From contig QHWT01000043.1 of the NCBI GenBank assembly GCA_003222675.1, forward strand, positions 1 to 64,000: 64,000 nucleotides of DNA. Reading direction: 5' to 3'. Source of the DNA: Acidobacteriota bacterium (GTDB taxonomy: Bacteria; Acidobacteriota; Vicinamibacteria; Vicinamibacterales; 2-12-FULL-66-21). Positions 15,032 through 38,528 of this stretch are shown here, in pieces. A program made the position numbers and the translations under genes. A model generated the notes under the pieces. The model did not search any database. It worked only from the letters and a program-made list of their open reading frames with translations, and had not been told where the DNA came from. Within the stretch, counting starts at the first letter, position 1; the number at the start of each line of letters is the position of its first letter.

Positions 15032-15051
15032 CTTCCGCCTGCAGGCGGAAG
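15032..15051. repeat. Palindromic REP-like element, copy 1
   Basis: Perfect 20-nt palindrome CTTCCGCCT-GC-AGGCGGAAG followed by CCACGA, placed 7 nt after the aminotransferase stop. The same palindrome, differing at one central base, with the same CCACGA flank recurs at 36894-36919 inside a coding sequence, which marks it as a dispersed element. It could also act as a terminator hairpin without a U-tract. Confidence 0.65.
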
Positions 15052-15065
15052 CCACGAAATCAATC

Positions 15066-15112
15066 GTAGGCCGGGTCTTTGGACCCGGCATCAGCGGTCT
15101 TGAGACCCGGCG
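15066..15112. repeat. GCCGGGTC palindromic repeat pair
   Basis: It begins GTAGGCCGGGTCT and contains the hairpin GCCGGGTC-TTTG-GACCCGGC (15070-15089). A second, inverted copy follows (GGTCTTGAGACCCGGC). The start motif GTAGGCCGGGTCT is repeated exactly at 59700-59712 after the other large permease gene. Here the element abuts the stop of the minus-strand permease (15113). Confidence 0.55.
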
Positions 15113-20234: not shown

Positions 20235-20308
<74 letters not shown>

Positions 20309-34381: not shown

Positions 34382-34442
34382 GACCGCCCTCACCAACGTG
34401 ATGTGCGCTGCAGCGTCGATTGTGGTCCAGAATGACGCCCGG

Positions 34443-37400
34443 ATGACTTCCCCGCGCGTACGTCGGCCAAAGTACTGTTGCCTCCTCATCGCGGGTGTTC
34501 TGCCGGCGTTTCTTTCGGCTGATGTAGCCGCGCGCACGCCAGGTCTAAAGACCCTGCCTCCACTGCAATCTCAGCTCGCGGTTCCGGAAACGATGCGACC
34601 GTTTCTGAAGCATCTCGAACCGGGAAGCGACGCGTTCCCGATGGAGCGTCAGGTGAAGGAGCTCGAAGCGCGGCTCCGCGAGGTGTCCGACGCGTTTCGT
34701 GCGGGCGCGGCCGGCGCGGCCGGCGTCACCAAAGGGCTGCTCGATCCGAGCTTCCGCGGCGCACGACTTCTCCCGCTCGAAGAGACGGCCACGACGCAGG
34801 CGCCGCTCGAGGTGAAGCGAGCGAAGGATCTGCCGCGCGCGCTCACGCTGGACGCTGCCTCGTTCGCCGCGGAACTGCAACGACTGATGGACGATCTTCG
34901 CGATGTCACCGTCGCGGAGTTCCTCATCACCTCGATCGAACCGGATGGTCCGGCTGATTCGCCGTCTGGCCTTCGCACCACTGTCCGCTACGACATCGTC
35001 GGCGCCGGAAGGAAGGCGTACCGCGTCGAGCACGTCGGCGAGTGGGCGATGACCTGGCGCCGAAACGCGTCAGGCTGGCAGGTCCTTCGATGGACCGCCA
35101 CTGCCCATGTGGTCAGCCGCGCGCGAACCCCGATCTTCACCGAGATCACCGCGGCGGCTCTCGGAGGCAACGACTCGTTCCGACATCAACTCAACATCGA
35201 TCTCGACTCCTGGATGGCGGCGTTCGACTCGGTCTTGACGCGCGACTCCAACGGGCATCATGGCGTCTCGGTCGGAGACGCGGATGGTGACGGACTTGAC
35301 GATCTTTACGTCGCCCAGCCCGCCGGATTGCCCAATCGCCTCTACCGAAATCGCGGCGACGCAACCTTCGAAGACATTACAGACACCGCGGGAGTCGGCG
35401 TCCTCGACGACACCGCGGCGTCGCTCTTTGCTGACGTCGATAACGACGGCGATGAGGATCTCGTATTGGCTACCGCGACCAGACCCCTGCTCTTCATCAA
35501 CGACGGCAAGGGACGCTTCACTCTTGCGCAGGACGCCTTTCAATTCGCCCGGCCGCTTCAGGGCGTGCTGACGTCGATCACGATGGCGGACTACGACCGT
35601 GACGGCTTTCTCGATCTGTACTTGTGCGTCTACTCCTATTTCTTCGGGGCCGGTGAGGACAAGGCCGGAACGCCGGCTCCGTACTACGACGCGCGCAACG
35701 GACCGCCGGGCGTCCTCTTACGAAATGACGGCCACGGGCGATTCATCGACGTGACACAGGAATCGGGCCTCGACGTCGGGAACGATCGCTATCACTTTGC
35801 GGCGGCCTGGGCCGACTACGACGCCGACGGCTGGCCCGATCTTCTCGTCGCGAACGACTTCGGGACCAAGAACCTGTATCGCAATCTCGGGCGTCGTTAC
35901 GGCAAAGTGAGATTCGAGGACGTGGCCGCTTCAGCGGGAGCTCTCGATTACGGCGCCGGCATGAGCGCCACATTCTTCGACTACGACAACGACGGCCTGC
36001 TCGACATCTATACGGGCAACATGTGGAGTGCGCCTGGCCAGCGCGTGACCTCCGCGCCAACGTTCATGCCCGATGCGACGCCGGAGGTGCGCGCGCTCTA
36101 TCGCCGGCATGTTCGAGGGAACTCGTTGTTACGAAATCTCGGCGATGGACGCTTCGAGGACAAGACGCTCGAGGCGCACGCCGAGATGGGGCGCTGGGCA
36201 TGGTCGTCGGACGCGCTCGATTTCGACAGCGACGGTTGGGACGACCTCTACGTCGTCAACGGCATGCTGACGCGAGCGCCTGCGGCCGCCGTGAGGAGCG
36301 AGTCTTCGAGTGACCGGGCGGTAAGAGCGCCTGCGGCCGCCGTGAGGAGCGAGTCTTCGAGCGACCGAGCGGTAAGAGCGCCTGCGGCCGCCGCGAGGAG
36401 CGAGTCTTCGAGTGACCGAGCGGCAGTGAGCGGGGGTGGGGCCCCGCGAGCGGTAAGAGCGCCTGCGGCCGCCGCGAGGAGCGAGGCTTCGAGCGACCGA
36501 GCGGCAGCGAGCGGGGGTGGGGCCCCGCGAGCGTTGAGAAAAGATGCTCGGGATTCGCCTACGGAAGATCTCGAGGGATTCTTCTGGCGACAGGTTGTCG
36601 CCCACTCGCCGCTCACGCGGCTGCCCGGCACGTCGTATGACGATGCCTGGCGTGCGATCAACGAGCTGCTGATTCACGGCTCGATCGCCAGCCGACAGCG
36701 CAACGTGTTCCTGCGCAACGACGGACATGGCGGCTTCGATGAGATCTCAGGCGCGCTCGGGCTCGATCTCAATCAGGACGGCCGATCGTTCGCGGTGCTC
36801 GACGTCGATCGCGACGGCGATCCGGACCTCGTCGTGATGGCCGCCCGGCAGGCGCCGCAGCTTCGGGTGTTCCGAAATGATTTTGGGACGGATCTTCCGC
36901 CTGAAGGCGGAAGCCACGAGTTGGCGGTCCGGCTCACCGGGACGAAGAGCAACCGCGACGCAATCGGCGCTCGTGTGATCGTCGAAACCGATCGCATGCG
37001 CCGGACGAAAATCGTGCAGGCCGGTTCCGGATTCCTGTCGCAGCACTCGAAGGAGCTGCTGATCGGTCTCGGTGCGAGCGAGCGCCTCGTGAAGCTGACG
37101 GTCGAGTGGCCCTCGGGCGGAACGCAGGTCTTCACCGACGTGCCACTGAACACTCGCGTCCGGATTGTCGAAGCGGGCGACATCAAGACGGAGCCCTTCG
37201 CGAGACGATCGGCAGGGAGGACGGCGACGCTCACAATCCCGCCGGCTTCACCGCCAACTGAAACCTGGTTGTATGAGCCATTCCCGGCACCGGACTTTTC
37301 GCTTCAGGACCTCTCCGGAGGAGCGCGTTCGCTCGCGGCATTAAAGGGAAAGCCGGCCGTCGTACTTCTCTGGTCTTTCGATGTGGTCGCGGCGCGCACG

Positions 37401-38528
37401 GCGCTCGAGACACTCGAGCGCGGCGCCAAGGCGCTCAGTCAGGCCGGCGTGGGATCGATCGCGATTGCCACCGATGTTCTGCGAGATCAGGCGCCTCTAC
37501 GTGCTCTCGCTTCGAGCGCGATCCCAATCGTCATTGCAACTCGTGAGGTCAGCCTGAGCTACGCCATCCTCAACCGCCACCTGTTCATGAACCGGCAGGA
37601 CCTACGTCTGCCGATGTGTCTGCTGCTCGATGCCAGCGGGAACGTCGTGAAGGCCTACCGCGATCGCGTGGACGTTGCTCAGATCATGAAAGACGCGACG
37701 ACGATCGACGTGTCTCCGGCCGAGCGGCTCACCCGTGCGGTGCCGTTTCACGGAACCTTCTATTCCGGCCTGCCGCTCCGCAACTACCTGCCGTATGGGC
37801 GAGAGCTTCTCGATCAGCGTCTGGAGGCTGCCGCCGTGATGGCGTTCGAGCGCGCCGCAGAGGCGAACCCGGGCGCCCCCACGCTGTATCGGTTGGGTAC
37901 GCTGCTGTCCAGGAGCGGCGAGACGGCGCGGGCTCGGGCGGCGTTCGAGCGCGCCCTGATGCTGCAGCCGGACCTAGCCGAGGCCAACAACGATCTCGGA
38001 GCCCTCCTCGCACAGGGAGGGGATCTCGACGCTGCCATCAGTCGGTTTCGTGCAGCGCTTGCGTCGATTCCTGAGTACCCCGATGCGTTGAACAACCTTG
38101 GCTACGCCCTGCTACTTAAAGGTCGCGACGAGGAAGCTCGCGCGCTCTACGAAAAAGCCTTGGCGCTGCAGCCTGACTTTCCTGAAGCCTTGAACAATCT
38201 CGGAATGCTTCTCGGTCGAGCGGGAGAGATGGATCGGGCGGAGCGCTATTTCCGTGATGCGCTGGACCGGCGCGCGGACTACGGAGAGGCAGCCAACAAT
38301 CTGGCGCTCGTACTTGTCTCGAGGGGACAACTGGACGCTGCTGTCAGCCTTCTCGAAGGCGTTCTGAAGCGGACACCGGAGTACGAGGGAGCCTACGTGA
38401 CTCTAGCCAAGGTCTACTTCAGCGTCGGCCGCTCCGCGGAGGCCATCGGTGTACTCGAACGGCTTCTGCAGAGGAATCCCAAACACCCGGTCGCCCTGGA
38501 ACTGCTCCGGCAATGGAAGCGGGACTGA
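34443..38528 (+). CDS. Secreted FG-GAP/ASPIC-UnbV, thioredoxin-like and TPR fusion protein
   Basis: Giant exported protein of 1361 residues from the ATG at 34443, which opens a signal peptide (MTSPRVRRPKYCCLLIAG...). In order: an N-terminal helical region, seven calcium-loop FG-GAP units forming a propeller (DADGDGLDDLYVA, DVDNDGDEDL, DYDRDGFLDLYL, DYDADGWPDLLV, DYDNDGLLDIYTG, DFDSDGWDDLYVV, DVDRDGDPDLVV), an ASPIC/UnbV domain (AGSGFLSQHSKELLIGLGA), a thioredoxin/AhpC-like domain without a CxxC (PDFSLQDLSGG), and about six TPRs. FG-GAP/ASPIC proteins often sit beside TonB receptors in Acidobacteria. A repeat insertion (36274-36536) and a REP-like palindrome lie in frame inside it. Confidence 0.87.
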   Translation: MTSPRVRRPKYCCLLIAGVLPAFLSADVAARTPGLKTLPPLQSQLAVPETMRPFLKHLEPGSDAFPMERQVKELEARLREVSDAFRAGAAGAAGVTKGLLDPSFRGARLLPLEETATTQAPLEVKRAKDLPRALTLDAASFAAELQRLMDDLRDVTVAEFLITSIEPDGPADSPSGLRTTVRYDIVGAGRKAYRVEHVGEWAMTWRRNASGWQVLRWTATAHVVSRARTPIFTEITAAALGGNDSFRHQLNIDLDSWMAAFDSVLTRDSNGHHGVSVGDADGDGLDDLYVAQPAGLPNRLYRNRGDATFEDITDTAGVGVLDDTAASLFADVDNDGDEDLVLATATRPLLFINDGKGRFTLAQDAFQFARPLQGVLTSITMADYDRDGFLDLYLCVYSYFFGAGEDKAGTPAPYYDARNGPPGVLLRNDGHGRFIDVTQESGLDVGNDRYHFAAAWADYDADGWPDLLVANDFGTKNLYRNLGRRYGKVRFEDVAASAGALDYGAGMSATFFDYDNDGLLDIYTGNMWSAPGQRVTSAPTFMPDATPEVRALYRRHVRGNSLLRNLGDGRFEDKTLEAHAEMGRWAWSSDALDFDSDGWDDLYVVNGMLTRAPAAAVRSESSSDRAVRAPAAAVRSESSSDRAVRAPAAAARSESSSDRAAVSGGGAPRAVRAPAAAARSEASSDRAAASGGGAPRALRKDARDSPTEDLEGFFWRQVVAHSPLTRLPGTSYDDAWRAINELLIHGSIASRQRNVFLRNDGHGGFDEISGALGLDLNQDGRSFAVLDVDRDGDPDLVVMAARQAPQLRVFRNDFGTDLPPEGGSHELAVRLTGTKSNRDAIGARVIVETDRMRRTKIVQAGSGFLSQHSKELLIGLGASERLVKLTVEWPSGGTQVFTDVPLNTRVRIVEAGDIKTEPFARRSAGRTATLTIPPASPPTETWLYEPFPAPDFSLQDLSGGARSLAALKGKPAVVLLWSFDVVAARTALETLERGAKALSQAGVGSIAIATDVLRDQAPLRALASSAIPIVIATREVSLSYAILNRHLFMNRQDLRLPMCLLLDASGNVVKAYRDRVDVAQIMKDATTIDVSPAERLTRAVPFHGTFYSGLPLRNYLPYGRELLDQRLEAAAVMAFERAAEANPGAPTLYRLGTLLSRSGETARARAAFERALMLQPDLAEANNDLGALLAQGGDLDAAISRFRAALASIPEYPDALNNLGYALLLKGRDEEARALYEKALALQPDFPEALNNLGMLLGRAGEMDRAERYFRDALDRRADYGEAANNLALVLVSRGQLDAAVSLLEGVLKRTPEYEGAYVTLAKVYFSVGRSAEAIGVLERLLQRNPKHPVALELLRQWKRD
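36274..36536 (+). repeat. In-frame tandem repeat of 51 and 81 nt inside the FG-GAP gene
   Basis: Four units start with GAGCGCCTGCGGCCGCCG at 36274, 36325, 36376 and 36457. The first two repeat at 51 nt, the third is extended to 81 nt by GGGGTGGGGCCCCGCGAGCG, and the last has the same extension. All lengths are multiples of three, so they add units of 17 or 27 residues (RAPAAAVRSESSSDRA type) right after the sixth propeller blade. Base composition and residues differ sharply from the flanks. Confidence 0.9.
36894..36913. repeat. Palindromic REP-like element, copy 2, inside a CDS
   Basis: CTTCCGCCT-GA-AGGCGGAAG followed by CCACGA: the same palindrome and flank as at 15032-15057 except one central base. 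Here it is read in frame as L-P-P-E-G-G-S-H in a loop of the FG-GAP protein. It resembles coding-region palindromic elements such as those of Rickettsia in behaviour. Confidence 0.7.

Follow-up and report, generated by a model that had tools for sequence, protein, structure and literature searches.

Family A, a GTGG-tagged REP family of this Acidobacteriota genome, has very probably been inserted in frame into protein-coding genes, moved by a RAYT and tolerated where it falls in linkers or loops. Comparison with relatives shows insertion, and the transposase step is one that we infer. Family A is a hairpin of ~26 nt, non-coding, and it has spread as single copies and inverted dimers. The RAYT (TnpA-REP, a single-strand Y1 HuH transposase) that presumably moved it would recognise a guide tetranucleotide together with the hairpin, and this enzyme may have been lost from the genome or missed. 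Insertions in genes would survive if the hairpin is read in one of five stop-free frames, if the total change in length keeps the frame and if the site is a linker or a loop. In the host gene of the window, LPPEGGSH would have been added just ahead of the UnbV/ASPIC domain, and this most likely alters function little.

The window, i.e., the whole stretch of 64,000 nt that was analysed, holds two copies of the motif, whose general form is CTTCCGCCT-NN-AGGCGGAAG-CCACGA (Table 1). Read on the opposite strand, the motif is TC-GTGG-CTTCCGCCT-TC-AGGCGGAAG, and both copies consist of a GTGG tag, a 9-bp stem and a 2-nt loop, ~26 nt in all. With a 2-nt loop, the pattern has exactly two matches in the window at ≤3 mismatches, where 0.04 are expected, and this is beyond chance; with a 1-nt loop, it has none at ≤2 mismatches. 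The sequence-only reading had described a 26-nt palindrome at these two places, and both copies are real, but its pattern omitted the 2-nt loop. Together with the adjacent family B copy, the intergenic copy forms a mixed dimer (15032-15089) joined tag to tag. A survey of REP transposases used the rule of GTAG or GTGG located 0-2 nt 5′ of a fully paired 7-20-nt stem with a loop of 2-5 nt (PMC6006769), and the family A motif agrees with it in tag, spacing, stem length and loop length. As a separate observation, the window also contains, at 20256, 23396 and 26527, three copies of a 54-nt stretch resembling the 3′ end of tRNA-Cys, 3.1 kb apart. ARAGORN places a tRNA gene at the first of them only, and the three tRNA-Cys-like ends may mark repeated integration at the tRNA.

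Table 1. Features of the window, with positions counted from its first nucleotide.
Feature	Position	Strand	Remarks
Host gene	34398-38528	+	FG-GAP repeats, UnbV/ASPIC domain, AhpC-TSA domain, TPR repeats; start given by the hexamer caller, 34593
In-frame tandem repeat	36264-36527	+	In the host gene; 51- and 81-nt spacing; distinct from the REP
Family A REP	36894-36919	-	CTTCCGCCTGAAGGCGGAAGCCACGA, loop GA; GTGG tag and hairpin; + strand in frame as LPPEGGSH
Family A REP	15032-15057	-	CTTCCGCCTGCAGGCGGAAGCCACGA, loop GC; intergenic, between two converging predicted genes
Family B REP	15066-15089	+	GTAG and GCCGGGTCTTTGGACCCGGC

Across the whole genome (7.16 Mb, 152 contigs), the 26-nt pattern has 165 matches at ≤3 mismatches, split 88 to 77 between the two strands; a backwards control pattern has none at the same threshold. 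These are matches and not copies, as a palindrome whose two ends both have a tag-like flank is scored once per strand. Because some palindromes match on both strands, the 138 raw matches found in a 2.40-Mb sample of this genome merge into 127 places; the sample was chosen partly for holding listed matches and was used for shares per copy, with no density drawn from it. Hairpins with a GT[AG]G tag and a stem of at least 7, 8 or 9 bp number 69, 56 and 45 in 837.8 kb of the genome, versus 57, 17 and 4 in the reversed-sequence control. The two dominant families are A (GTGG-CTTCCGSCTTYAGSCGGAAG) and B (GTAG-GSCSGGTCTTYAGACCSGSC).

The tag is GTGG in 138 of the 143 family A-like copies of the 2.40-Mb sample, the others carrying GTAG by the selection rule. 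Perfect stem pairing is seen in only 73 of these 143 copies, and any single stem position is unpaired in 13 to 19 of them. At stem position 7, 108 copies have C:G and 21 have G:C, and at position 6, 118 have G:C and 12 have A:T; the changes at these two positions are often compensatory. After merging, 64 of 141 family A copies are located ≤200 bp from another one, where ~1.7 neighbours are expected by chance, and an inverted arrangement is seen in 32 of 33 neighbour pairs, 21 with the tags inside and 11 with the tags outside. The earlier description of the palindrome as REP-like is borne out by its tag, by its stem and loop, and by the compensatory changes and the inverted dimers.

We scanned 162 genomes of the order, including this one (G000), for family A at ≤1 mismatch. 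Four of them hold at least 130 matches each (G000, 131; its congener G001, 130; G003, 151; G034, 183), seven hold 1 to 7, and 151 hold none. Among the matches listed, the CCAC end, equivalent to the GTGG tag, is present in 24 of 24 for G000, 23 of 24 for G003 and 24 of 24 for G034. In G001, all 24 matches listed have the CTAC end (tag GTAG), and at least three others in that genome end in CCAC. In a scan of public genomes, Acidobacteria MAGs account for 79 of the best 80 of 97 stretches. The sole exception among the matches listed is an exact family A match on a contig of an Acidimicrobiia MAG (L253, 577-600), which may reflect chance, contamination or transfer.

This genome has two Y1_Tnp genes (L031 and L032). 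No GT[AG]G hairpin with a stem of at least 8 bp was found within 600 bp of either, and both were therefore dropped as candidate movers of family A; an unrelated hairpin is located ~630 bp from L031. A shorter kind of Y1_Tnp, the RAYT type, is characterised by the consensus AYCFMPDHLHLL, RLWQ and RYILxNPVRAGLV. Within 600 bp of this kind of gene, GT[AG]G hairpins (stem ≥8), of REP families other than A, are present at 12 of 17 loci versus 0 of 24 for the remaining Y1_Tnp type, two of the 12 having a single hairpin that could be due to chance, as 3 of 28 unrelated loci also have one. The set of 24 is without L103-L105, which have no hairpin or a single 7-bp one. The 13 weaker matches L179-L191 are in neither set as such, although several of these genes also figure among the 24; L181, L187 and L191 have at least two GT[AG]G hairpins each, and L190 has one. 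In G001, four family B REPs come after a RAYT-type gene, whose stop codon is provided by the first of them. Loci L162-L177, in genomes of the order, were also observed to contain eight or more distinct REP families, every one adjacent to a RAYT of its own.

Family A is beside a RAYT at none of the loci examined. A RAYT-type profile search with E up to 10 found none in G003, G034 and G023 (93, 74 and 87% complete) and only two genes of the other type in G000 (99.9% complete), so that the enzyme that spread family A is one that we infer. The lack of a REP-type RAYT in three of the four family A-rich genomes (G000, G003 and G034) would agree with a miniature element that is REP-like in shape only and is mobilised by a transposase of a different kind, that of an IS with terminal inverted repeats. 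Terminal-repeat transposases have been reported from other Acidobacteria, which is the single mention of this phylum in the available text of PMC3733652. We consider such an origin improbable, given the GT[AG]G tag, with GTGG and GTAG exchanged between species, and given that the REPs beside the RAYTs of L171, L172 and L177, such as GTGGTGTCCGGCTTCAGCCGGAC, are near-identical to family A, differing mainly in the outer stem.

For the distribution of the REP family relative to genes, we ran a simple hexamer gene caller made for this analysis on the 2.40 Mb. Counting family A at ≤2 mismatches and dropping copies ≤200 nt from a stretch end gave 132 copies, of which 49 are within predicted genes, 8 lie across a gene end and 75 are intergenic, versus ~12% expected. 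Random places fall in genes in 88% of cases (first 1.61 Mb); thus, genes are avoided by family A. Intergenic copies in turn avoid divergent spacers (3 of 75, versus 275 of 1337 spacers; p = 8e-5, by number and not by length). Family B is found in genes less often than family A (15 of 90 versus 49 of 132, Fisher p = 9e-4), also under a strict rule that asks for room and a good coding signal on both sides (3 of 90 versus 20 of 132, p = 0.006).

The 49 in-gene copies are spread over 38 genes, 11 of which have two copies. The motif leaves five frames open, and these copies are read as LPPEGGSH-type (22), VASAFRRK-type (11), GFRLQAE-type (7), FRLKAEAT-type (6) and WLPPSGG-type (3) peptides, with none in the stop frame. 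The LPPEGGSH frame exceeds the one fifth expected (22 of 49, p = 9e-5), and it accounts for 8 of 20 copies in the strict set (p = 0.04). For the four genomes together, with at least 100 in-gene copies, the respective frame counts are 36, 21, 16, 18 and 9, and again 0 for the stop frame; outside this genome, the counts come from at least 31 loci of G003, 10 of G001 and 37 of G034, the other two of the 80 public stretches being from further genomes. Based on this frame bias, and on the REP-derived residues that the argS linker carries in G000, G001 and G003, one could propose that in-gene copies are kept for a useful peptide, i.e., a domesticated linker or tag. This is decidedly unlikely: the G003 loci use the frames evenly (6, 5, 5, 5 and 4, among the matches listed), genes are avoided overall, and the bias is accounted for, with no benefit required, by a Pro/Gly-rich peptide being tolerated.

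It could also be argued that gene calling has produced many of the in-gene copies as artefacts and that the element is essentially extragenic, since the caller was home-made, 29 of the 49 copies fail the strict rule and some are at gene ends; five are in called genes of <120 aa. We regard this as very unlikely, because 20 copies in 16 genes pass the strict rule, 32 copies in 23 genes are at least 30 aa from both protein ends, and at several sites the alignment of orthologous proteins extends to either side of the insert.

The positions of the inserts within proteins were determined from Pfam matches, for which 20 of the 38 host proteins were searched. In the window gene, which is open through the insert and has a normal coding signal on both sides, the insert corresponds to residues 768-776, ahead of the UnbV/ASPIC match (790-856). 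The AlphaFold model of a host fragment (mean pLDDT 51.5) places it in a low-confidence coil between two strands, and no weight is given to this model. The insert of argS (109-117) is between the N-terminal (9-94) and catalytic (125-367) matches, and that of uvrA (290-298) is between the interaction (207-279) and DNA-binding (346-410) matches. In two fusion proteins the inserts are located between catalytic domains, and in truA, a family 2 glycosyltransferase and a Na/H exchanger they fall within a Pfam match. ArgS is expected to be essential, and its insert must therefore be tolerated.

The window gene contains a second kind of repeat, the tandem repeat of Table 1 (RAPAAAVRSESSSDRAV and variants), which is absent from the four closest orthologues. 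It was considered as a second dispersed family and rejected, as four test words occur on this contig only (2.40 Mb).

The window site was compared with its relatives at 30 loci, of which 28 were aligned (all but L101 and L102), one being the window itself. Among the 27 other loci aligned, 26 extend across the site, and PPEGGSH is present in none of these. These relatives are mostly distant, with ~29 to 42% identity, and four are close (L074-L077). The nearest orthologue, from G003 (L074), is 85% identical and has RNDFEAPHTASLAVRL where the window gene reads RNDFGTDLPPEGGSHELAVRL, which makes it 15 nt shorter; for L075-L077, the shortfall relative to the window gene at this site is 21 nt. The sequence-only reading had placed the palindrome in frame within this gene as an inserted element, naming as the contrary case that all orthologues contain PPEGGSH. 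The in-frame insertion is borne out, and the contrary case fails with the 85%-identical orthologue included. Ancestral coding sequence that is palindromic by accident and resembles a repeat elsewhere is extremely unlikely and is refuted at the window site, the open frame and normal coding signal being outweighed by the 165 genome matches, versus none for the control, and by the absence of the palindrome from the aligned relatives.

Sixteen further host genes were compared with G001 and G003, the sites being judged by eye. Counting the window gene, a recognisable REP is missing from one or more of the aligned relatives at 11 of the 17 intragenic sites. Two sites, argS and a PMT/TPR protein at C22:298559, have a REP in every aligned relative, the argS linker carrying a single REP-derived stretch in this genome, two in G003 as a pair and several in G001. 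Two sites are ambiguous (C126:28924 and C139:68895), and two are without a usable comparison, C38:95417 having no match and uvrA only a 30%-identical paralogue. A search for an empty site that is exact to the base gave none, the flanks differing by at least 15%. The best candidate for such a site, L146, was discarded, as a decayed REP is present in both genomes, this one included.

Apart from family A, the nearest orthologue of the window gene has two in-frame copies of another imperfect palindrome (L074, reverse strand, ~248 and ~1931, around TCGACAAGCTC), coding for RPSTSSGRPEPVEGR, and these palindromes are absent from the corresponding places in this genome. One gene has thus taken up different in-frame palindromes in two genera.

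Family A resembles the GTAG-tagged REPs and their RAYTs described in other bacteria in its guide tetranucleotide, stem and 2-nt loop, and also in its inverted dimers, its high copy number and the presence of some in-gene copies (PMC3733652, PMC6006769). As in those systems, REP-flanked RAYTs are present in genomes of the same order, and it is the cognate RAYT of family A that was not found. Unlike them, family A is mostly GTGG-tagged, and it is not among the families named in the available text of either source. GTAG repeats have been reported from Proteobacteria, Cyanobacteria, Chloroflexi and the PVC group (PMC3733652). The GTAG-20 repeats of O. terrae, the species with the most intragenic GTAG repeats of that survey, are mostly GTGG-tagged like family A, in a comparison made by description only and with another phylum (PMC3733652). 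In the available text of PMC6006769, Acidobacteria appear with a class 3 enzyme with atypical structures.

The likeness to the RPE of Rickettsia proposed by the sequence-only reading holds for behaviour, both being palindromes found in frame in protein genes, but not for membership (PMC3733652, PMC10969869). The RPE repeats of R. conorii are described as CGTC-tagged (PMC3733652), a tag that family A, with GTGG, does not have. RPE are described as ~150 bp long, and the sources, as available, report no transposase association for CGTC repeats (PMC3733652, PMC10969869). The same reading had held that an in-frame element in Acidobacteria would be notable, which is only partly so, as intragenic REPs of other phyla were catalogued in 2013, including those in uvrA, tRNA synthetases, truA and truB (PMC3733652). 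A literature search of titles and the beginnings of abstracts, with few subscription papers, returned no other descriptions of REPs in this order. REPs are an already known kind of element; family A and its hosts look new.

Because uvrA, tRNA synthetases and pseudouridine synthases of unrelated phyla are on the published list of intragenic REPs (PMC3733652), a general property of some REPs is possible. We suggest only tentatively, and as a doubtful proposition, that family A, with its tag and stem and five of six frames open, is a standing source of in-frame linker insertions in some Acidobacteriota, including those in ArgS, UvrA and TruA, and that coding compatibility or recurrent targeting of gene classes may be general in some REPs. 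The present analysis shows REP families beside RAYT genes in an Acidobacteriota order, and the in-frame insertions of one palindrome, set against relatives without the insert, make its effects on proteins testable. For annotators, peptides like LPPEGGSH, FRLKAEAT, VASAFRRK, GFRLQAE and WLPPSGG, when encountered in proteins of these genomes, probably originate from REPs.
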